64,000 bases of DNA from Spirochaetales bacterium. GTDB lineage: Bacteria > Spirochaetota > Spirochaetia > DSM-2461. The notes under the pieces are model-generated. The model was given only the letters and a program-made list of their open reading frames with translations. It had not been told where the DNA came from and did no database searches. This document shows positions 36,529 to 47,665 of this stretch, one piece after another. How positions within the stretch are numbered: the stretch's first letter is position 1; each line of letters starts with the position of its first letter. The DNA lies in assembly GCA_016936555.1 (NCBI GenBank), contig JAFGXR010000108.1, positions 62,001 through 126,000 of the forward strand. The letters run 5' to 3'. Position numbers and translations under genes: made by a program.

Positions 36529-37908
36529 TTATTTAGTGTTCAGGCCTATTTTCTCCAGAATCTCCTTGTGAAGTCCGGCATCGATAGGGTACTTTCTGAT
36601 AATCAAGAGGCCGGCGGCGATGAAGACTGTCGGAACAAGGCAGGTCAGCAGCCTGATTCCCAAAAGGGTTTCGGGACTCTGTGTAAAGGAAGATAGGCTG
36701 TCCGATATTGACTCGGGTTGTATATAGCGGGATAGAGAAAGCCCCAACCCTGTAATAAATCCGCTTATGGCTGCAGCCAGTTTCTGACTGAAATAGAAGA
36801 AACCGTAGAGAATCCCCTCTCTTCTTAAACCTGTTTTCCATTGGGAATATTCCACTGTGTCCGGAATCATGGCCCAGGGGCTGAAGTAAAGTGTCGAAAT
36901 GCCTGTTCCCGCCAGAATCAGCAGAGGTATCAGTATGATCTGATTGAACTCTCCCATAAAGAAAAGAGAGATGAGAGAAAGGGCTACAATGATCATGCCG
37001 GTATTGAATGACCGGGCTTTCCCCAGTATTCCTGTTATCCTGACCCAGAGGGGAATAGCCAGTGCCGAGGTTCCGAACATTATGAGCAGGGCAACAGGTA
37101 TGAAGGCTTCCCTGTTATAGTTGTATTTAAAGAAATAGTTGATCATGGCGCCAAGTACGCCTATGGCTATCATGTGCATGGTCATTCCCGAAGCCAGGAT
37201 CAGAAAGGGGCGGTTTGCCAGAATGACTTTTCCGATGTCGGAAATCTTATAGTCTGCAAGAGGGCCCGACCGTGTATTTTCACGGACCGAAGCAAAGGTA
37301 ATCAGGGTCAGGACGGCCACCAGAGCTCCGTACAGGAGTCCAGTATAACGCCACCCCGTCTGTTCGCTGGAAAAAAGAGATACAATCGGCCTGGTGGCAC
37401 CTGCGACGAATACTGTAGCCAGTATGGCGAAAAAGGTTCGGTAGCCGGTTATGGATGAACGCTCATGGGTATCGGTCGTAAGAGAGGCCGTGAGGGCTCC
37501 ATAAGGAATATTGACGACTGTGTAAGCTGTACATAGAAGCAGGAAAGCCGATAACCCGTAAATAAATCTTCCATTGCCGCTCAGGTCGGGGCTGTAAAAG
37601 AGAAAAAACATGGACAACCCCAGGGGAATGGCTCCGAAGAGCAGATAGGGACGCTTCGAGCCCCAGCGGCTTTTGGTTTTATCGGAAGAGTAGCCGATGA
37701 GGGGATCGCTGACGGCATCCCAGATCTTTGATGTCAGAATGATCGTCCCGGCCAATCCGGCTGGTAGGAGAAAGACATCGGTAAAATAGAACATGAGAAA
37801 AAGCATGATTGTCTGGTAAACGAGATTGGCTCCGAAATCGCCCAGGCCGTAACCGATTTTCGTTCCCAGGGAGACATGAGGTCCTGTGTTATAATTGTTT
37901 TCTTTCAT
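36529..37908 (-). CDS. GPH-family sugar:cation symporter (MelB-like)
   Basis: 459 residues with about 12 membrane helices. The N-terminal 'GTKIGYGLGDFGANLVYQTI' and 'LTSKIWDAVSDPLIGYSSDK' motifs, with the cation-site Asp residues, define the glycoside-pentoside-hexuronide symporter family. The ATG (complement of 37906-37908) is preceded by no ribosome-binding site. A TACAAT element sits exactly 7 bp upstream, the same layout as in the transketolase gene, so a leaderless mRNA is predicted. It probably brings in the product of the divergent sulfatase for the catabolic operon at 40291-47665 (inference from the shared operator). Confidence 0.9.
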   Translation of the reverse strand: MKENNYNTGPHVSLGTKIGYGLGDFGANLVYQTIMLFLMFYFTDVFLLPAGLAGTIILTSKIWDAVSDPLIGYSSDKTKSRWGSKRPYLLFGAIPLGLSMFFLFYSPDLSGNGRFIYGLSAFLLLCTAYTVVNIPYGALTASLTTDTHERSSITGYRTFFAILATVFVAGATRPIVSLFSSEQTGWRYTGLLYGALVAVLTLITFASVRENTRSGPLADYKISDIGKVILANRPFLILASGMTMHMIAIGVLGAMINYFFKYNYNREAFIPVALLIMFGTSALAIPLWVRITGILGKARSFNTGMIIVALSLISLFFMGEFNQIILIPLLILAGTGISTLYFSPWAMIPDTVEYSQWKTGLRREGILYGFFYFSQKLAAAISGFITGLGLSLSRYIQPESISDSLSSFTQSPETLLGIRLLTCLVPTVFIAAGLLIIRKYPIDAGLHKEILEKIGLNTK

Positions 37909-37994: not shown

Positions 37995-39449
37995 ATGGTA
38001 AACCGGGTATTAAAGTATACAGCCCTGATGTTGATACTGCTGCTTGTCCTGTCTCTGGCAAGCTGCGGCAGGACCGGGGCCGAAGAAAAAAATCTGAAGA
38101 ATATCATTGTTATTACAGCTGACGATCTGGGCTGGCGGGATCTTTCCTCCTACGGGTCACCCGACGTGCCCACGCCGAATATAGACAGTCTGGCCGATGA
38201 GGGATTCCTGTTCGACCAGTGCTACGCCGTTTCACCGAGCTGTGCACCGAGCCGGGCGTCTCTGATAACCGGGCAGTATCCCCACACCCACGGCGTAGAC
38301 GGACTGGTCCACATACATCCGGAGAAAACCCTTTCTCCTTTTCATTTTACTCTGCCCCGTATTCTCAGGCGGGCCGGTTATGAAACAGCGATTCACGGGA
38401 AATGGCATGTGGCTCCTTTTTTCCCGAAAAGCTGGTACGGGTATAAAACATCGCTCAATCCCATCAATCCTTTCGCCATGCATATCGAAAGTTCCGATCC
38501 GGCGGTCGATTATATTAACAATCATGCCGATGAACCTTTCTATCTGGAACTCAATTATATGAATAATCACCGCCGGGATGACGGTACCTTCGAAAACATT
38601 GCTGAGTATGCTCCCGATCCCGGAGCCATTTCCGTTCCCTCCTATTACGCCCTTCCTGATATGCCGGAAATCCTGTCGGACCTGGCGGATTATCACAGTC
38701 AGACAATGAAAATGGATAAGATGATCGGTGACGTTCTCGGAGCGCTCAAACGGAACGGGCTTACGGATAATACGATTATTGTTTTTTTCAGTGATAACGG
38801 CGCCCCTTATCCCGGTATGAAAATGACCCTTTATGAGAGGGGGACAAAGGTTCCGATGATTGTGAAAATTCCCGGAACGGAGTCTGCCGGCTCTGTTGTC
38901 GACGAACCTGTGAATTCCATCGATATCATGCCGACTATACTCGATGCCCTGTCACTGGATATTCCCCGGGAAGTTCAGGGGGAAAGTCTTATGCCGCTTC
39001 TGGAGGGGAACCGACCGGAGAATCCCGATAAAGCAGTTTTTACGGAAATGACATATCATGTCGGGTATATCCCCGGCAGGGCTGTCCGGCAGGGGTCGTG
39101 GAAGTACATCAGAAACTATTCAAGCGGGAATATCGGCCTGGATCAGCTCAATTACTTCGAGTGGGCCCACCGTCTCTGTGACTCTTCCGGTCAACCCTGG
39201 AAATCTCCGCGGATTCCTGAAGAACTGTACGACCTGGATTCGGACCCCGATGAACAGAATAATGTCATTAATCTTTATCCGGAAAAAGCCGCCGGTCTCA
39301 GCGGGCTTCTCGACGAACATATGGCGGCAACCGGTGATGCCTATCTGGAGAAATCCTTTGAAGATGATTATGATGCCGGAGATTATGTCATGACTGAATA
39401 TAAACCCTCATGGTGGAGCAGAAAAGATAGTGTCTCTCAGGAAGAATAG
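37995..39449 (+). CDS. Lipoprotein sulfatase (Cys-type)
   Basis: 484 residues. Lipobox LASC with Cys24, so it is envelope-anchored. The sulfatase signature is C83-A-P-S-R followed by A-S-L-I-T-G, where C83 would become formylglycine. Metal ligands D43/D44 ('TADDLGW') and the 'FFSDNGAPYPG' Asp-Asn pair are present, as is 'IHGKWHVA'. No formylglycine-generating enzyme or anSME is in the window, so maturation relies on a gene elsewhere. AAGGAG lies 7 bp before the ATG. It is divergent from the symporter and shares its operator region. It probably removes sulfate from a sugar or cyclitol before uptake (inference). Confidence 0.9.
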   Translation: MVNRVLKYTALMLILLLVLSLASCGRTGAEEKNLKNIIVITADDLGWRDLSSYGSPDVPTPNIDSLADEGFLFDQCYAVSPSCAPSRASLITGQYPHTHGVDGLVHIHPEKTLSPFHFTLPRILRRAGYETAIHGKWHVAPFFPKSWYGYKTSLNPINPFAMHIESSDPAVDYINNHADEPFYLELNYMNNHRRDDGTFENIAEYAPDPGAISVPSYYALPDMPEILSDLADYHSQTMKMDKMIGDVLGALKRNGLTDNTIIVFFSDNGAPYPGMKMTLYERGTKVPMIVKIPGTESAGSVVDEPVNSIDIMPTILDALSLDIPREVQGESLMPLLEGNRPENPDKAVFTEMTYHVGYIPGRAVRQGSWKYIRNYSSGNIGLDQLNYFEWAHRLCDSSGQPWKSPRIPEELYDLDSDPDEQNNVINLYPEKAAGLSGLLDEHMAATGDAYLEKSFEDDYDAGDYVMTEYKPSWWSRKDSVSQEE

Positions 39450-40210
39450 CCGAGCCGGGAACTGATCTGAGCAGCCGTTTCCGCCAGTTCCCGGCCCAGT
39501 TCTTCCAGGGCTGGTTCAATTCTCAATTTCGGGCCGGAAATGCCGATGGCGGCTTCGATTTCACTCTTGTAATTCCGGATGGGGGCGGCCAGACAGACAA
39601 CATTGGGTTCGAATTCTTCTCTGTCAACGGTGTAACCCTTTTCCCGGCAGCTGTTCAGTTCCTTTACCAGCTCATCAAGAGATGTAATGGTATTCTCTGT
39701 AAAGGGCTGAAGTGATTCTGACGGGATGAGTCTTCTCATTTCCCCTGCGGTCATATCCATTATAAGGCTTTTCCCGACGGCAGTGCAGTAAAGCTCTTCC
39801 GTGTCGCCGATATTGGTGTTGGCCGTCAGTGCCCGGCTGCCCAGTTCCCTGTCTATGAAAACGCAGCGGTTCCCGCTCCGGACGGCCAGATGGGTGTTCT
39901 CTCCCCATTTGTACTTCATCTGTTTCAGGAAAGGGGAGACAATTTCGGTTATTTTCAGACTGTTTCTCAGAATCGAAGCCAGTTTGAAAACGCCGAAACC
40001 GAGGTGGTAATTTCTCTCTCCAGTATCCTGACGGATAAGTCCGTATTTGGCCAGCGTATTAATGGATCTCGACACGGAACTTTTGTCAATTCCAATCTCT
40101 GAAGATAATTCCTGGAGCCCCCAGTTGGACTGAGGGTTTTCCGCAATAAGTGAAACGATTTGTAATGCTCTGTCTACGGACTGTACGACTGTTTTCTCTT
40201 CTTTTGCCAT
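39437..40210 (-). CDS. IclR-family transcriptional regulator
   Basis: 257 residues. An N-terminal winged helix-turn-helix ('WGLQELSSEIGIDKSSVSRSINTLAKYGLI', ~residues 29-60) is followed by the IclR effector-binding GAF-like domain ('AVGKSLIMDM', 'CREKGYTVDREEFEPNVVCLAAPI'). The gene is convergent with the sulfatase (13-bp overlap of the 3' ends) and divergent from the transketolase operon. Its promoter region contains the dyad GTATTGCGCAATAC. It is the obvious repressor or activator of both the catabolic operon and the symporter. Confidence 0.9.
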   Translation of the reverse strand: MAKEEKTVVQSVDRALQIVSLIAENPQSNWGLQELSSEIGIDKSSVSRSINTLAKYGLIRQDTGERNYHLGFGVFKLASILRNSLKITEIVSPFLKQMKYKWGENTHLAVRSGNRCVFIDRELGSRALTANTNIGDTEELYCTAVGKSLIMDMTAGEMRRLIPSESLQPFTENTITSLDELVKELNSCREKGYTVDREEFEPNVVCLAAPIRNYKSEIEAAIGISGPKLRIEPALEELGRELAETAAQISSRLGYSS

Positions 40211-40251
40211 AAGGAGATCATAGCACCGGTTTAATATTTGTGCAAATTATT

Positions 40252-40290
40252 GTATTGCGCAATACGAAATTAGAATGTACAATACGCAAT
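40252..40290. promoter_or_regulatory. Putative IclR operator and leaderless promoter of the catabolic operon
   Basis: The perfect 14-bp dyad GTATTGCGCAATAC (40252-40265) and GTACAATACGCAAT (40277-40290) abut the transketolase ATG. TTGCGC (40255-40260), a 17-bp spacer and TACAAT (40278-40283) form a plausible promoter whose transcript would start at or next to the A of the ATG. The same pair of elements is found at 37907-37940. Confidence 0.7.
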
Positions 40291-41142
40291 ATGAAGATTA
40301 AGATCAGTATAGATGAAATCCAGGCGGTTAAAGAGAAAGCGGGCCGTATCCGGCGGCTGTCTCTTAAGACCTGCCATCATGCGGGCTGCGGACATCTGGG
40401 AGGAAGCTTCTCCGAAGCGGATATTCTGGCCTGCCTTTATTTTTCCCAATTGCATATCGACCCCTCCCGTCCGGCCCTGGCGGAGAGAGACCGCTTTATC
40501 CTCTCAAAAGGCCATTCGACGCCGGGGTATTACGCGGCTCTTGCCGCTGCAGGATATTTTGACGAGTCGGTCCTGGAGACATTTGATGAAGCGGGTTCCC
40601 CTCTCCAGGGGCATCCCGACCGAATGAAAACTCCCGGTGTGGATATGTCCACCGGGTCTCTCGGACAGGGGCTTTCGGTCGGGGCGGGCATGGCCCTGGC
40701 CGGGCAGATGAAAGTGCTCGATTATTATGTGTACGTTCTGATGGGCGACGGTGAGATCCAGGAGGGTCAGGTCTGGGAAGCTGTGAATTTTGCCGGTTTC
40801 CGGCAGATACGCCGTTTGATCGGTATTGTGGACTGCAATAATCTGCAGCTTTCCGCGAAGACTCTGTCCCCTGCCGGGGAAAGAACTCTCGAGAGAAGAT
40901 TTGAAGCTTTCGGTTGGAAGACTCTCCGGTGCAGCGGACATGAAATCGGCGAACTTCTTTCAACTCTGCGGGAAGCCCGGAATCTGGCAGCCGATGGCCC
41001 GGTTATGGTTCTGGCCGATACGGTCAAGGGCAAAGGCGTCTCCTTTATGGAGAATCAGATTGAATGGCACAGCAAAATAGTCAGCGATAGAGATTACGAA
41101 AAAGCCAGAGCCGAACTGGAGGAGGTTTACGGTGCACAGTAA
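40291..41142 (+). CDS. Transketolase, N-terminal (ThDP-binding) subunit
   Basis: 283 residues from ATG 40291; GTG 40240 would run the coding region through the operator and adds no conserved residues. It has the ThDP motif 'GDGEIQEGQVWEAVNFAGF...VDCNN' and the transketolase phrases 'GGSFSEADILACLYF', 'LSKGHSTPGYYAALA' and 'GSLGQGLSVGAGMALAGQ'. It is a half-length enzyme that needs the C-terminal subunit encoded by the next gene, which overlaps it by 11 bp. No ribosome-binding site precedes the ATG; a leaderless mRNA is predicted. First gene of a six-gene operon. It transfers two-carbon units; the sugar may be unusual given the partners. Confidence 0.9.
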   Translation: MKIKISIDEIQAVKEKAGRIRRLSLKTCHHAGCGHLGGSFSEADILACLYFSQLHIDPSRPALAERDRFILSKGHSTPGYYAALAAAGYFDESVLETFDEAGSPLQGHPDRMKTPGVDMSTGSLGQGLSVGAGMALAGQMKVLDYYVYVLMGDGEIQEGQVWEAVNFAGFRQIRRLIGIVDCNNLQLSAKTLSPAGERTLERRFEAFGWKTLRCSGHEIGELLSTLREARNLAADGPVMVLADTVKGKGVSFMENQIEWHSKIVSDRDYEKARAELEEVYGAQ

Positions 41143-42097
41143 AATTGAAATTCCCGCCATAGCTCCCCGTCAGGCCTTCGGAGAGGTTCTTTTGGAACTG
41201 GGAGAAAACAGACAGGACCTGATTGTTCTGGATGGAGATGTCTGTACATCGACCAGAACCGATATGTTCAGGGATCGTTACCCCGAACGGTTTATACAGG
41301 CCGGTATAGCCGAGGCGAATATGGCGGGAATGGCCGCGGGGCTGGCATCCTGCGGTTTCAAACCGGTCGTCAGCACTTTCGCTGTTTTTCTGGCTAAAAG
41401 GGCTCTCGATCAGATCCGGGTTTCCATCGCCCATGCGGAATTGCCGGTCATCCTCAACGGGGCCTATGCGGGGCTGCCTACGGGAAACAGCGGCGCAACC
41501 CATTCTTCCGTCTCCGATATGGCGGTCATGCGCTCCATGCCCCATATGACGGTTCTCGATCCCGCCGATGCGGAGGATACCAAAGCGGCGGTACGGCTGG
41601 CTATGAACCACGACGGGCCGGTGTACATCCGAACGGTGCGCTGTCCGGTTCCGCAGATCTTCTCCGAAGGGCACACCATGGAGTTCGGCCGCTCGGAGCG
41701 GCTTCTGGAAGGCGATGATGTCGCCATTATTTCCAGTGGGATGATGACTCCCAAAGCACTGGAAGCGGGGCTGGCTCTGAAAAAACAGGGCATCGGAGCG
41801 CGGGTTATTCATATGGGCAGCGTAAAACCGATCGACAGAGAAGCGGTTCTCGCCGCGGCCCGGGAGTGCGGAGCCATTGTCACTGTGGAAAATCACAGTG
41901 TCATAGGCGGTCTGGGGGGAGCTGTTTCGGAGGTTGTAACATCACAATCCCCCTGTCCGGTAAGGCGGCTGGGATTTGATGACCGGTTTCTCGAATCGGG
42001 AAATGATGAAATCCTCTTCAGCCGTTACGGAATGAATACGGAAAATATCATAGAGGCAGCAAAGGAGATGTATCGTGAATATAGCAGTAGTAAGTGA
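41132..42097 (+). CDS. Transketolase, C-terminal subunit
   Basis: 321 residues from GTG 41132, with GGAGG about 10 bp upstream in the preceding gene. It carries the pyrimidine-binding domain ('VLDGDVCTSTRTDMFRDRYP', then 'RFIQAGIAEANMAGMAAGLA' with the catalytic Glu) and the C-terminal domain ('SVKPIDREAVLAAARECGAI', 'TVENHSVIGGLGGAVSEV'). It completes the active site with the subunit encoded upstream. It overlaps the isomerase gene by 23 bp, so the three are tightly coupled. Confidence 0.9.
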   Translation: MHSKIEIPAIAPRQAFGEVLLELGENRQDLIVLDGDVCTSTRTDMFRDRYPERFIQAGIAEANMAGMAAGLASCGFKPVVSTFAVFLAKRALDQIRVSIAHAELPVILNGAYAGLPTGNSGATHSSVSDMAVMRSMPHMTVLDPADAEDTKAAVRLAMNHDGPVYIRTVRCPVPQIFSEGHTMEFGRSERLLEGDDVAIISSGMMTPKALEAGLALKKQGIGARVIHMGSVKPIDREAVLAAARECGAIVTVENHSVIGGLGGAVSEVVTSQSPCPVRRLGFDDRFLESGNDEILFSRYGMNTENIIEAAKEMYREYSSSK

Positions 42098-42716
42098 GAC
42101 GAGCGCGGGCGACCGCAATGAAGATATTGTCAGAGCTCTGTCGGAACGGGGGCACAATATCATCAATCTGGGTATGACCGGAAAAGGGGGCGATTACGAA
42201 CTCAGTTATATTCATACGGGTTTCCTATCGGCTCTGGCTGTACACAGCGGAACGGCGGATTTCGTCGTCGGGGGCTGCGGCACCGGGCAGGGGTATCTCA
42301 CTTCGGTCATGCAGTACCCGGGAATGTTCTGCGGACACATTCTGAGTCCGCTTGATGCCTGGCTTTTCGCTCAGATCAACGGCGGGAACTGTCTGTCTCT
42401 GGCTCTGAATCAGGGGTACGGATGGGCCTCCGGGGAGAACCTCGGTTTCATTTTCGACAGGCTTTTCAGCGTGGAATTCGGGGCAGGATATCCCGGGCAC
42501 AGAAGGGAACCCCAGAGAGTTTCCCGTCAGATCCTGACCGATATCTCGGCGGCTACCCACCTGTCCATGAAGGAGATCATAGGCCGTCTACCCGGAGAGA
42601 TTCTCCGACATGCTGTTCTCTTTCCCGGAGCCGCGGAGAAAATGAACCTCTCTCTGTCCTTTTCCGATTCGGATGAAAAAATACGGGACATTCTCGTATC
42701 CGCAGTGGAGAAATAA
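42075..42716 (+). CDS. RpiB/LacAB-family sugar isomerase
   Basis: 213 residues from GTG 42075. 'VVGGCGTGQGYLTSVMQYPG' carries the active-site cysteine C68 and the GTG loop of the RpiB/LacA/LacB aldose-ketose isomerase family. The C-terminal third is longer than in ribose-5-phosphate isomerase B (about 150 residues) and ends in helices. The pairing with a split transketolase recalls SqwGH-SqwI of the sulfoquinovose transketolase pathway, but other genes of that pathway are absent. It probably interconverts an aldose and a ketose on which the transketolase acts; the phosphorylation state is unknown. Confidence 0.8.
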   Translation: MNIAVVSETSAGDRNEDIVRALSERGHNIINLGMTGKGGDYELSYIHTGFLSALAVHSGTADFVVGGCGTGQGYLTSVMQYPGMFCGHILSPLDAWLFAQINGGNCLSLALNQGYGWASGENLGFIFDRLFSVEFGAGYPGHRREPQRVSRQILTDISAATHLSMKEIIGRLPGEILRHAVLFPGAAEKMNLSLSFSDSDEKIRDILVSAVEK

Positions 42717-42717
42717 T

Positions 42718-44625
42718 ATGGAAAGTGCAATCATTTCAACAGTAAACCGGGAACGCCTGGAACGGGCGGAGAAAGTCAGCCGGGGGCTGGCCGCCGCTCT
42801 TGACAGCGGCGAACTGGAAGAAAGACAGAAACTGACGGTCAGTGAAGCCCTGATTCTTGGGCTTTGCGGACTGGGAGTCAGGACATATATTGGAATTTTC
42901 GGTCATGGAAGCACCGATCTGGGAGATGTCCTGCGTGTCTATGAAGAAGCCGGAGCCCTGACGGTTATCAATGTCAGGAATGAAGTGGAGGCTTCCCATG
43001 CTGCGACTGCTCTGTCCTGGCAGTACAGAGAACGGGCCGCCGTCGTTACGTCGATCGGTCCCGGTGCCCTTCAGGCTCTTGCGGGATCCCTTGTCCCCCA
43101 GTCCAACGGATTGGGCGTCATTTATATTTTCGGGGATGAAACAACAGAGGATGAAGGTCCCAATATGCAGCAGATTCCCAAGAGGGAACAGTCTCTTTTT
43201 CTGAAAATGGCCGATGTCATGGGGCGGGGATATTCTCTTCATACACCCATGGCCCTGCCGACAGCTTTGAAAAGGGCCAATTCCGTGACATCGGATCCCG
43301 ATGGAGCAAAGCCTTTTTATTTTCTGCTCCCCATGAATGTTCAGCCTCAGGAAATTTCCGCATTCAACCTCAGGGAACTTCCCGTTAAGACAGGCTTTCC
43401 CGGCCGCGTACCGGCTGATGAGGGAATTCTTGACCGGGCTGCGGAAATGCTGATGGCCTCGAAGAGGCTGGTTATTAAAACAGGGGGCGGGGCGAAAAAT
43501 GTCGATCCGGATCTGATGACGGAACTTCTGGAAAGAACCGGCGCGCTCTATGTTCACGGTCCCCAGGTTCCGGGTCTTGTTCCCTTTTCCCATAAGCAGA
43601 ATATGGGAGTGGGAGGTTCCAAGGGGTCGATCTGCGGGAATTTCGCTATGGATAATGCCGATACCGTGCTTATTATCGGCGCTCGAGGAGTCTGCCAGTG
43701 GGACTGCTCCGGAACAGCCTTTGCAGGCGCCCGGAGAATCATCAACATCAATACTCAAATCGAGGATCTCTCCCAGTACAACAACAGCATTTCAATTCCC
43801 GGTGATGCTTCGTCGGTCATATCAATAATCTGTGATAAGATCGGAAAGATAAGAGACATCAAGGGAACAGAGACGGAACTCTGGCTTGAAGAAGGCGGAG
43901 AAAAAAAGAGGGAATGGCTCGATTTGATTCTCAGAAGAAGAAGAGAGCCGGTGCTTCATGATCCGAAATGGGGCCGGCCGGTTCTGACTCAGCCCGCAGC
44001 TATCGATCTGGCTGTCGATTTCGCCGACTCCCGGGGGGCCGTCAAGGTATTCGACGCAGGAGATGTCCAGGCCAATGGATTTCAGCTGTGCCGGGATGAA
44101 CACCCCTTCCGGACTTATACCGATACGGGATCCAGCTATATGGGGTATGCGGTCAGCTCGCTTCTCGCTTCGGCCATTGCCCCTTTGAGAGGAAAAAAAA
44201 CCGAGTACACTATTGCTTTTACAGGAGACGGAAGCTTTATGATGAATCCCCAGATTCTCATTGATGCCGTAAACTTTAAGCTGAGAGGTATGATAATCCT
44301 GTTCGACAATAGAAGGATGGCGGCCATTTCCAGTCTGCAGAGGGACCAGTACGGAGTCGATTACGCTACCGACGATAATGTGGACGTGGATTACTGCGCC
44401 ATGGCCCGCTCGGTCAGGGGTGTGCAGGCCTTTTTTGCCGGTTACGATTCACTGTCTTTTTCAAGGACTCTTGAAAAAGCCTATTCCTGTAACGGTTTAT
44501 CGGTCGTTCATGTTCCGGTCTACTGGGGAGATCATGAACTGGGCGGTCTCGGCGCTTACGGCCGCTGGAACGTAGGGCCATGGTGTTCCAGCGTTCAGCC
44601 GCTCAGACATCAAAATGCTTTATAG
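42718..44625 (+). CDS. ThDP-dependent enzyme, IolD-like
   Basis: 635 residues from ATG 42718, one base after the isomerase stop; the open frame upstream of that ATG is not needed. Three ThDP-enzyme domains: a pyrimidine-binding domain ('FGHGSTDLGDVLRVYEEAGA', 'VRNEVEASHAATALS' with the catalytic Glu), a central domain, and a PP-binding domain ('GDGSFMMNPQILIDAVNFKL' then 'DNRR'). Length and phrases fit IolD, the C-C hydrolase that opens trihydroxycyclohexanedione in inositol breakdown. IolE, IolB, IolC and IolJ are absent here, so the substrate is probably a different cyclic or branched dicarbonyl. It lies 9 bp before the dehydrogenase gene. Confidence 0.8.
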   Translation: MESAIISTVNRERLERAEKVSRGLAAALDSGELEERQKLTVSEALILGLCGLGVRTYIGIFGHGSTDLGDVLRVYEEAGALTVINVRNEVEASHAATALSWQYRERAAVVTSIGPGALQALAGSLVPQSNGLGVIYIFGDETTEDEGPNMQQIPKREQSLFLKMADVMGRGYSLHTPMALPTALKRANSVTSDPDGAKPFYFLLPMNVQPQEISAFNLRELPVKTGFPGRVPADEGILDRAAEMLMASKRLVIKTGGGAKNVDPDLMTELLERTGALYVHGPQVPGLVPFSHKQNMGVGGSKGSICGNFAMDNADTVLIIGARGVCQWDCSGTAFAGARRIININTQIEDLSQYNNSISIPGDASSVISIICDKIGKIRDIKGTETELWLEEGGEKKREWLDLILRRRREPVLHDPKWGRPVLTQPAAIDLAVDFADSRGAVKVFDAGDVQANGFQLCRDEHPFRTYTDTGSSYMGYAVSSLLASAIAPLRGKKTEYTIAFTGDGSFMMNPQILIDAVNFKLRGMIILFDNRRMAAISSLQRDQYGVDYATDDNVDVDYCAMARSVRGVQAFFAGYDSLSFSRTLEKAYSCNGLSVVHVPVYWGDHELGGLGAYGRWNVGPWCSSVQPLRHQNAL

Positions 44626-44634
44626 GGGAATAAA

Positions 44635-46146
44635 ATGGTAAAAACAGGTTTTATCGGATGCGGACGTATTTCCGATCTCCACTATCAGGCTTACCGGCAG
44701 CTGGATGAGGCGGAAATTGCCATGATCTGCGATCCCGATGAACAGGTCGTCAGAAAAAAAGCGGAATTGTGGGGTGTCGGGAACTATTGTACAGATTTCA
44801 GGGATATTCTGAAAAATCCTCACATCGATGCCGTGGAGATTCTCACGCCGCAGCTTTTCCATGAGCAGCTTGTAATAGAAGCTCTGGAAGCGGGAAAGCA
44901 TGTGGCTGTTCAGAAGCCGATGACAGTAAGTCTCAAGAGTGCCGACAGGATGATCAGGGCTGCTGAGAAAAACAACAGGATCCTGAAGGTGACGGAAAAC
45001 TATATCTTTTATCCGCCGATTCTCGAAGCGCGGAAAAGAATACTCGAAGGACAGATCGGAGAGCCTTCCACTATCAGAATCAAACTGAGCGCAACCAATT
45101 CGGGGGGGTGGTTTGTTCCTCCCGGATCGTGGCAGTGGAGAATGGAGGAATTCGCACAGGGGCGCGGGTCCCAGACTTTCGATCACGGGCATCATCTCTG
45201 GGCTGTCGCCTGGTTTCTCATGGGGGAGTTCGAAAGAGTCAGCGCCTGGATCGATGTGACCGATGATTCTATTGATTCTCCCGCGGTTATAATGTGGAAA
45301 CACCGCGGGGAAAGACGGTACGGCAGCTGTGAGTATTCCTATTCCAATGAGATGGAAATGCCTTCGGATTACTATTCCAATGATGAATGGATCGACATTA
45401 CGGGAAGCCGGGGTATCCTCAGGATCAACCGCTGTACGGGACATCTGAGCGACCGTCCCGTACTGGGGGTTTACCGCGACGGAAAATGGGAATATCCCGA
45501 AGAGTCGGATTCGGACTGGAGTTCCGGCTTTACCGGCGCTGCCAGGAACTTCATCAATGCCGTTCAGGGCAGAGAAGAGCCGGTTCTGAGCCTGGGCGAC
45601 GCCAGACATATACTGGCTATGGATATTGCTGTCCAGAAAGCCGCCAGAAAGTTCCGTCCCGTCTTTGTCGATGAGCTTGATGCGCCTCTTCCGGGATTCT
45701 ATGCCTGGAAGGAGCGCAACAGGATGAAGTCCCGGTCACCTCTTAATGTTAAGGTCCCGAAGGACAGCGGTAATCCGGTGCGTTTGGAAAAAATCAGAAG
45801 AAAATTCTCCTCCTATGCTTCAGTGGCGGGAAATCTGACTCTCTCTATGGGAGAATCTCTTGCCGGAAAGGAGAATCTCAATCTGAGAGGTGTCTTTCTG
45901 ATAGAACTGACAGGAGTAAATCAGACAACAGACACCTACCGGCTCGATATTGCGGATAGAAATATTTCCATGGATTCCGCGACGGAGACCGGGGGATGGG
46001 ATGTTAAAATCTCTTCGGACTCCGGAGTCTGGGGGGCGGTCCTCTCCGGGAAAAAATCTATGATGACAGCCTATCTGCAGGGATTGATTACGATTCAGGG
46101 CGACAGCGGCAAGGCTTTATCACTGAAAAAAGTTCTGGAACTTTAA
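44635..46146 (+). CDS. Gfo/Idh/MocA-family dehydrogenase fused to an SCP2 domain
   Basis: 503 residues. Residues 1-120 form the NAD(P)-binding Rossmann domain ('GFIGCGRISDLH'), with 'HVAVQKPMTV' supplying the catalytic lysine (Gln in place of the usual Glu of EKP). Residues ~125-365 form the alpha/beta domain with 'QTFDHGHHLWAVAWFLMG', the usual D/H motif. Unusually, residues ~395-503 match the sterol-carrier-protein-2 fold: 'GVFLIELTGV', 'WDVKISSDSGVWGAVLSGKK' and 'YLQGLITIQGDSGKALSLKKV' follow the SCP2 consensus in order. The fusion could give the dehydrogenase a hydrophobic-ligand pocket or an oligomerisation role. It oxidises a sugar or cyclitol in the operon's pathway (inference). Confidence 0.85.
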   Translation: MVKTGFIGCGRISDLHYQAYRQLDEAEIAMICDPDEQVVRKKAELWGVGNYCTDFRDILKNPHIDAVEILTPQLFHEQLVIEALEAGKHVAVQKPMTVSLKSADRMIRAAEKNNRILKVTENYIFYPPILEARKRILEGQIGEPSTIRIKLSATNSGGWFVPPGSWQWRMEEFAQGRGSQTFDHGHHLWAVAWFLMGEFERVSAWIDVTDDSIDSPAVIMWKHRGERRYGSCEYSYSNEMEMPSDYYSNDEWIDITGSRGILRINRCTGHLSDRPVLGVYRDGKWEYPEESDSDWSSGFTGAARNFINAVQGREEPVLSLGDARHILAMDIAVQKAARKFRPVFVDELDAPLPGFYAWKERNRMKSRSPLNVKVPKDSGNPVRLEKIRRKFSSYASVAGNLTLSMGESLAGKENLNLRGVFLIELTGVNQTTDTYRLDIADRNISMDSATETGGWDVKISSDSGVWGAVLSGKKSMMTAYLQGLITIQGDSGKALSLKKVLEL

Positions 46147-46171
46147 ATAGAGAATAATCAGGGAGATATAT

Positions 46172-47665
46172 ATGAGTTACAAAGTATACGGTCAATTTTT
46201 CGATGGTGCGGAACAGCCTGTCTATAAAGGAACCTCTCCGGTTTTCAATCCGGCAACCGGGAAAGTCATAGCTGAAACCGGCCATGCCGGGAAAGAAACG
46301 ACCGAGTCGGTTATTGAAAAAGCCGCAAAAGCGGGCGAAGCCTGGGCGGCGATGATACCGGCGAAAAGAGCATCGGTTTTCTACCGGTTCCGGGAGCTTC
46401 TCATGGAACATCAGGACGAGATATGCCGGATTATTACGGAGGAGCACGGCAAGACGATAGCCGATGCCAGAGGGGAGCTGCAGAGAGGTATCGAAAATGT
46501 CGAGTTCGCCTGCGGAATTCCCGCCCTTCTCAAGGGAGAATATTCCTCCCGCGCCGGTTCGGGAATCAGCACGAGAACGGAACTCTTTCCCCTGGGGGTC
46601 GTCGCGGGGATCACCCCTTTCAATTTTCCCGCCATGGTCCCTCTCTGGATGTATCCGGCGGCCATTGCCTGCGGAAACAGCTTTATTCTGAAGCCTTCGG
46701 AGAAAGATCCCGGTGTGAGTCTTTATATGGCGGGATTGTTCAGCCAAGCGGGATTGCCGGACAATGTCTTCACGGTTCTGAACGGTAATGAGGAGGTCGT
46801 TACCGCTCTAATCGATGATTTAAGGGTGCAGGCTTTCAGCTTCGTCGGGTCAACAGCTGTCGCCCGGAAAATTTATGAGCGCTGCGGAGCCCGGGGTAAA
46901 AGGGTTCAGGCACTGGGCGGTGCCAAAAATCACGCTGTCGTCACTTCTGATGCGGATCTGGAAATGGTCGGCAACGGATTGATGGGGGCTGTTTTCGGTT
47001 CGGCGGGAGAGCGTTGCATGGCTATCTCTGTAGCGGTTTGTATCGGCGATGAGACCGCTGACAGACTTGTTGCCTCTATGGTGGATAAAATCAGAGCCCT
47101 TAAGGTCGGTAACGGCATGGATGAAACATCGGATATGGGCCCTCTTATTTCCCTGGAGCATAGGGAAAGAGTCCGTTCCTATATCGATAAAGGTGTCGAA
47201 GAAGGCGCGGAGCTGATTGTCGACGGAAGAGAGCTGGAATTCAGGGACGGTTTTTTTATCGGCCCCAGCCTGTTTGACCGGGTGAAGCCGGGCATGTCTA
47301 TATACCGGGATGAAATTTTCGGTCCGGTCCTTTCGGTCGTTCGGGTGAAAACTCTGGAAGAGGCTGTTCAGCTCATCAACAGCCACCAGTACGGGAACGG
47401 AAGCTGTCTTTATACCAAGGACGGCGGCAGCGCCGATTTCTATACCCGGAATGTCTCGGCGGGGATGGTCGGGGTCAATGTACCGCTTCCTGTTCCCGTG
47501 GCTTATCATAGCTTTGGAGGATGGAAAGACTCTCTGATGGGAGACCATTATGCCTACGGGCCCGATTCCATTAACTTCTATACAAGGAAAAAGACAATTT
47601 CTGAACGGTGGGACAGCGGTACCGGAAAGAGTATCAGTTACAGTTTTCCTTCACACGGTAGCTGA
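46172..47665 (+). CDS. CoA-acylating aldehyde dehydrogenase, MmsA/IolA-like
   Basis: 497 residues. The nucleophile C282 lies in 'GSAGERCMAIS', and 'QALGGAKNHAVV' and 'FNFPAMVPLWMYPAAIACGN' are typical of methylmalonate-semialdehyde dehydrogenases, which make acyl-CoA from a semialdehyde. In inositol breakdown the same enzyme (IolA) turns malonate semialdehyde into acetyl-CoA. GGGAGA lies about 8 bp before the ATG. It is the last gene of the operon and probably handles the short aldehyde produced by the transketolase or by cleavage of the IolD-like product. Confidence 0.9.
   Translation: MSYKVYGQFFDGAEQPVYKGTSPVFNPATGKVIAETGHAGKETTESVIEKAAKAGEAWAAMIPAKRASVFYRFRELLMEHQDEICRIITEEHGKTIADARGELQRGIENVEFACGIPALLKGEYSSRAGSGISTRTELFPLGVVAGITPFNFPAMVPLWMYPAAIACGNSFILKPSEKDPGVSLYMAGLFSQAGLPDNVFTVLNGNEEVVTALIDDLRVQAFSFVGSTAVARKIYERCGARGKRVQALGGAKNHAVVTSDADLEMVGNGLMGAVFGSAGERCMAISVAVCIGDETADRLVASMVDKIRALKVGNGMDETSDMGPLISLEHRERVRSYIDKGVEEGAELIVDGRELEFRDGFFIGPSLFDRVKPGMSIYRDEIFGPVLSVVRVKTLEEAVQLINSHQYGNGSCLYTKDGGSADFYTRNVSAGMVGVNVPLPVPVAYHSFGGWKDSLMGDHYAYGPDSINFYTRKKTISERWDSGTGKSISYSFPSHGS

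Follow-up and report, generated by a model that had tools for sequence, protein, structure and literature searches.

A Gfo/Idh/MocA-family dehydrogenase fused to a C-terminal SCP2 domain in a probable polyol- or sugar-type operon of a Spirochaetales bacterium

Gene content of the locus

The window, i.e., the whole 64,000-nucleotide stretch of Spirochaetales DNA analysed here, carries a run of six genes on the plus strand. The run begins with the N-terminal half (40240..41142; PF00456) and the C-terminal half (41132..42097; PF02779, PF02780) of a transketolase and continues with an RpiB/LacAB-like isomerase (42075..42716; NF006753, PRK09273; 179 bits against a cut-off of 137). An IolD-like ThDP enzyme with TPP_enzyme domains follows (42673..44625, with the true start probably near 42718), then a 503-aa fusion protein (44635..46146), supported by its open reading frame and translation, by Pfam and by homologues, and finally an aldehyde dehydrogenase of the methylmalonate-semialdehyde dehydrogenase (MMSDH) type (46172..47665; TIGR01722, 586 bits against a cut-off of 448.5). 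Spacing is tight, the fusion gene starting 9 bases past the IolD-like gene and the MMSDH-type gene lying 25 bases after the fusion. A divergent IclR-family regulator precedes the run (39437..40210, minus strand; PF01614, PF09339), and IclR homologues recur at the loci of other fused proteins. The transketolase, encoded by two overlapping genes in the window (40240-42097), is a single gene at loci L024 (5439-7541) and L126 (4621-6582). Beyond the IclR gene, the operon is adjoined by genes for a lipoprotein-type sulfatase (37995-39449) and an MFS_2-type sugar transporter (36529-37908); these neighbours suggest that a sulfated or glycosidic compound is taken up.

Among NCBIfam models, IolG and IolD matched the dehydrogenase and its ThDP neighbour best, yet both matches fell far under the curated equivalog cut-offs: 103.7 bits against 355 for IolG inositol 2-dehydrogenase (TIGR04380) and 145.4 bits against 715 for the IolD hydrolase (TIGR04377), of which the neighbouring gene is a divergent relative. 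No IolE scored above cut-off in the window genome, and KduI/IolB-type matches were located on other contigs. The locus was therefore not assigned to the classical inositol pathway. The window operon also contains no recognisable dehydratase, which sets its route apart from classical inositol breakdown.

Architecture of the fusion protein

The dehydrogenase part of the protein spans residues 1-345 (44635..45669, plus strand). Its N-terminal Rossmann NAD-binding domain (residues 3-119) matched PF01408 (GFO_IDH_MocA) with 90 bits against a cut-off of 24, and its C-terminal alpha/beta substrate domain (residues 130-343) matched PF22725 (GFO_IDH_MocA_C3; residues 130-262) with 42.3 bits against 27 and PF02894 with 36.9 bits against 22.9. 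A linker of ~45 residues (346-391; 45670..45807, plus strand) leads to the SCP2 domain, residues 392-503 (45808..46143, plus strand). In the 503-aa protein, SCP2 (PF02036) scored 39.6 bits (E 6.9e-10; cut-off 21.3) over residues 416-502, covering positions 18-101 of the 101-position profile; when the C-terminal tail was searched alone, the score was 43.7 bits. Moreover, a profile built from 18 homologous tails matched PDB entries for rabbit and human SCP2 (1qnd, 2c0l; E 2e-7), as well as the SCP2 domain of MFE-2 (1ikt). Models predicted from two-row alignments were too poor to use (pLDDT 42.7 and 38.7), and support for the SCP2 fold comes from the sequence profiles only.

The initial annotation had read this gene as a dehydrogenase with a C-terminal SCP2 domain. 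That reading, including the domain borders, held up in the HMM search it called for, since both parts lie above their Pfam cut-offs. SCP2 was also found in 18 of 18 complete fused homologues of our alignment and in none of three alphaproteobacterial relatives. An assembly error or frameshift could in principle have joined two genes; however, the identical join and a similar linker are seen in independent assemblies, nothing was found in favour of such an artefact, and we consider its probability negligible. These results confirm that the Gfo/Idh/MocA-SCP2 fusion is genuine, being neither a chance match nor a sequencing join.

The dehydrogenase part is similar to DgpA, LgdA, and glucose-fructose oxidoreductase. 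As the initial annotation had correctly observed, a Gln replaces the Glu of the usual EKP motif, giving QKP (residues 93-95; 44911..44919, plus strand), and among the matches listed the closest PDB relatives have EKP. The substitution, with Lys and Pro kept, is invariant in all 21 aligned proteins, including three that lack SCP2. Because the SCP2-less relatives share it, the motif is uninformative on the fusion, and the alignment indicates that the Gln is a trait of the subfamily unconnected with SCP2. The putative catalytic motif D183-x3-H187 (DHGHH; 45181..45195, plus strand) is likewise conserved, both D183 and H187 being invariant across the aligned fused proteins and SCP2-less relatives.

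Distribution, neighbourhoods and origin

To follow the homologue survey that the initial annotation had also proposed, we searched 393 genomes of the phylum and found full-length relatives (E <= 1e-60) in 19 genomes representing 11 genera. Eighteen of these proteins are complete and all have SCP2, while the nineteenth ends at a contig edge. A further survey covered 395 genomes from the window's class and yielded one more fused protein (locus L120) together with several SCP2-less relatives. In total, the fused protein occurs in 20 genomes of one phylum, probably Spirochaetota, and SCP2 is kept in 19 of the 19 with an intact C-terminus. Both surveys scored the top three candidates per genome only, so absences are soft. 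In the class survey, three other genomes of the window's genus gave no match, and the distribution of the operon is therefore patchy. Three scans of viral collections returned no relative; plasmid records contained SCP2-less relatives only, and the SCP2 tail used alone as a query matched nothing there. A contig search gave one relative (L004), which has identical best matches to L024 and represents the same place. Our literature search found no published description of a Gfo/Idh/MocA-SCP2 fusion or of the operon. The fusion thus apparently represents an undescribed domain architecture, in a small protein family under selection, and adds a new class of host enzyme to the known SCP2 fusions.

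An IolD-like gene was present in 15 of 19 fusion genomes compared with 1 of 35 genomes without the fusion, though the genomes are related and these counts are not independent. The four fusion genomes lacking it are three members of one family (f49) and G198, where the fusion lies beside MFS-type transporters. Many fused genes adjoin an MFS_2 or MFS_1 transporter. In another class, BKACE, ADP-forming acyl-CoA synthetase, and cupin genes near the fusion replace transketolase. Gfo/Idh/MocA dehydrogenase and IolD-like ThDP enzyme genes recur together as an operon type (L123-L128; window 40240-47665; L030-L037; L042-L044), accompanied by RpiB-like and transketolase genes, by BKACE and acyl-CoA synthetase genes or, in Alphaproteobacteria, by an IlvD-type dehydratase. 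This operon type, which the fusion marks, is conserved and apparently uncharacterised so far. At L065, in a genome whose assembly is 80% complete, an IolD-like gene is present and neither the fusion nor an SCP2-less counterpart was detected.

Seven genomes of the window's class, one of which belongs to the window's own family, encode 388-390-aa counterparts (L122-L128) whose dehydrogenase is 47-52% identical. In place of SCP2 these proteins have a short conserved tail, and no separate SCP2 gene was found near any of the seven in the stretches read. All seven adjoin an IolD-like gene, and in five (L124-L128) transketolase and RpiB-like genes are present as well. They differ from the fused loci in their flanks, where read: the flanks of six operons (L123-L128) contain genes from clusters represented at L127 by a LacI-type regulator, a solute-binding protein, and an ABC permease, the ABC importer being of the sugar type. 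SCP2-less relatives also occur in Sinorhizobium and Labrenzia, where IolD-like genes adjoin them together with genes for an aldehyde dehydrogenase and an IlvD-type dehydratase. Since close relatives without SCP2 occupy equivalent operons, SCP2 is dispensable for the core of the pathway, which marks it as a useful accessory and not as part of the core reaction. The natural pairs, equivalent operons with and without SCP2, are the most useful result of this analysis, as they provide a control with which the role of the fused domain is directly testable.

In a tree that included 23 further SCP2 domains drawn from the phylum, the fused domains formed one clade (99/98), which favours a single event; the fusion probably arose once. 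On the dehydrogenase tree, the best solution requires two changes in SCP2 state, and an arrangement with all fused proteins as one clade was not rejected (AU test, p 0.245). The SCP2-less forms may be ancestral or derived.

Role of the SCP2 domain

To assess constraint on the domain, we compared seven close pairs of fused proteins. Values of dN/dS were 0.05-0.15 for SCP2 and 0.07-0.12 for the dehydrogenase, while the linker exceeded both domains in most pairs (0.16-0.26). At such low dN/dS, the SCP2 domain is functional in those lineages. The window sequence is more divergent. Its SCP2 domain is 23-28% identical to the other fused SCP2 domains, which average 48% among themselves, whereas its dehydrogenase part is 46-52% identical to other fused proteins. 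SCP2 branches in the window, L024, and L120 are 2.7-4.6 changes/site long (poorly estimated) compared with 0.5-0.7 for their dehydrogenases, and the SCP2 domain of this group appears to be under weaker or different constraint. One might conclude that the domain is here a decaying relic heading for loss, the more so as SCP2-less forms are common in the window's class. However, the window domain is still recognised by Pfam at 39.6-43.7 bits, contains no stop codons, and keeps most of its predicted cavity lining (see below), and the SCP2-less forms need not be derived, the AU test not having rejected all fused proteins as one clade; we regard decay as improbable.

Cavity-lining positions have been named for a moth SCP2 structure (PMC4674756). 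We transferred the moth residue numbers through an alignment to rabbit SCP2 and scored 15 cavity and strand positions in 19 fused domains. Thirteen of the 15 are hydrophobic in 19 of 19 domains, five of these lying on the first strands. Of the other two, one is hydrophobic in 17 of 19 (Ser in the window) and one is always basic; the window domain is accordingly hydrophobic at 13 of 15. By this inferred mapping, the fused domains have the hydrophobic cavity lining of SCP2, and the mean hydrophobic fraction across aligned columns is 0.51. The conserved lining supports a ligand cavity but does not prove it, as core residues are commonly hydrophobic in folds of this kind. The initial annotation had suggested that the domain may bind a substrate or product of acyl or lipid-like nature, or link the enzyme to its partners. 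In favour of this suggestion, nearly all fused domains have hydrophobic residues at the cavity positions, and the domain is under purifying selection; the SCP2-less relatives in equivalent operons speak against an essential role in catalysis.

Known enzymes offer partial parallels. MFE-2 and SCPx enzymes, which act on acyl-CoA in beta-oxidation, also carry SCP2 appended to a metabolic enzyme, and the MFE-2 domain is among those matched by the fused-tail profile; the fusion's operon, in contrast, looks like polyol or sugar catabolism. HSDL2, a short-chain dehydrogenase (SDR), likewise combines an oxidoreductase with an SCP2 domain at its C-terminus, but it is eukaryotic and organellar whereas the fusion is bacterial. 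The fusion belongs to neither type, since its catalytic domain is Gfo/Idh/MocA and not an SDR or beta-oxidation domain. HSDL2 has a proposed role in fatty acid metabolism, with its substrate unidentified (PMC3583843). Alkyl sulfatases also end in an SCP2-like domain (Alkyl_sulf_C, PF14864), and a weak PF14864 match occurs in seven of our aligned proteins; however, their catalytic domain has a metallo-beta-lactamase fold, and the window tail matched PF14864 with an E-value of only 0.19. For the remainder of the operon, the closest parallel is the sulfo-transketolase pathway (SqwGH and SqwI), which handles a non-phosphorylated sugar acid by the successive action of a two-gene transketolase and an isomerase (PMC13219744). 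The likeness is an analogy of logic only, and no sulfonate genes were recognised in the fusion operon.

We hold, with about even confidence, that the protein is a cyclitol- or sugar-type dehydrogenase of a catabolic operon whose accessory SCP2 domain binds a ligand, was fused once, and has been kept in part of the phylum. By analogy with IolG, the NAD(P)-dependent dehydrogenase would oxidise a ring hydroxyl of a cyclic polyol or sugar-like substrate; the IolD-like ThDP enzyme, by analogy with IolD, would then open the ring; and the RpiB-like isomerase and transketolase would, by analogy with the sulfo-transketolase route, isomerise the product and remove two-carbon units. The SCP2 cavity would hold an amphipathic compound, either a substrate variant bearing a hydrophobic group or a lipid that modulates or positions the enzyme, and would not be required for hydride transfer. 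What the data establish directly is the domain architecture and its recurrence, purifying selection in lineages other than the window's, the gene neighbourhood, and the existence of natural counterparts without SCP2; counting against the reading as a whole are the divergence of the window's SCP2, the four fusion genomes without an IolD-like gene, the lack of a recognised dehydratase, and the low-pLDDT models. A bolder proposal is that dehydrogenase, IolD-like enzyme, RpiB-like isomerase, and transketolase or BKACE form an undescribed pathway of cyclic-polyol catabolism, whose SCP2 version handles amphipathic substrates with the hydrophobic group held in the fused domain; this would be a long shot.

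Two other roles for the domain were weighed against ligand binding by an accessory domain. SCP2 might be purely structural, stabilising the oligomer or docking the enzyme on operon partners with no ligand bound. The counterparts, which occupy equivalent operons and have a short conserved tail (KGLTIEELKEKGRIL type) instead, fit this idea, and the core pathway genes appear hydrophilic; on the other hand, a conserved hydrophobic lining, an invariant Trp, and a basic residue would be unneeded, and no tested partner gene exactly tracks the presence of SCP2. We judge this tentative explanation somewhat unlikely. A substrate that is itself lipid-linked or bulky and hydrophobic (a glycolipid, sterol glycoside, or acylated cyclitol), delivered to the active site by SCP2, seems doubtful to a greater degree: the same core enzymes occur without SCP2, implying a similar small substrate, and the operon contains no recognisable lipase or glycolipid hydrolase. 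Such delivery nevertheless has precedent in SCP2-bearing enzymes (MFE-2 and, as suggested, HSDL2) and agrees with the dehydrogenase's likeness to DgpA, LgdA, and glucose-fructose oxidoreductase, with the MFS_2/MFS_1 transporters beside many fused genes, with the LacI-type regulator and sugar-type ABC importer beside six SCP2-less operons, and with the abundance of SCP2 proteins in the class of genome G143.

The surveys also brought up other SCP2 proteins. Loci L082 (1402-2973), L073 (283-1902), and L068 (988-2175), as well as L071, L075, and L092, encode proteins in which two or three SCP2 domains in tandem precede a CPxCG zinc-ribbon-type region; at the first three loci the gene directly adjoins a thiolase-like gene. 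These proteins are reminiscent of SCPx and steroid side-chain systems. The class they come from has an enlarged set of SCP2 proteins, with up to 10 matches per genome. A 577-aa protein (L067, 37-1770), possibly another oxidoreductase-SCP2 fusion, starts with a membrane-type stretch, continues with a flavoprotein-like part, and ends in an SCP2 domain. Finally, the best SCP2 match in the window genome (58.6 bits) is the C-terminus of a 507-aa protein encoded on contig C52 (L001, 250-1773).
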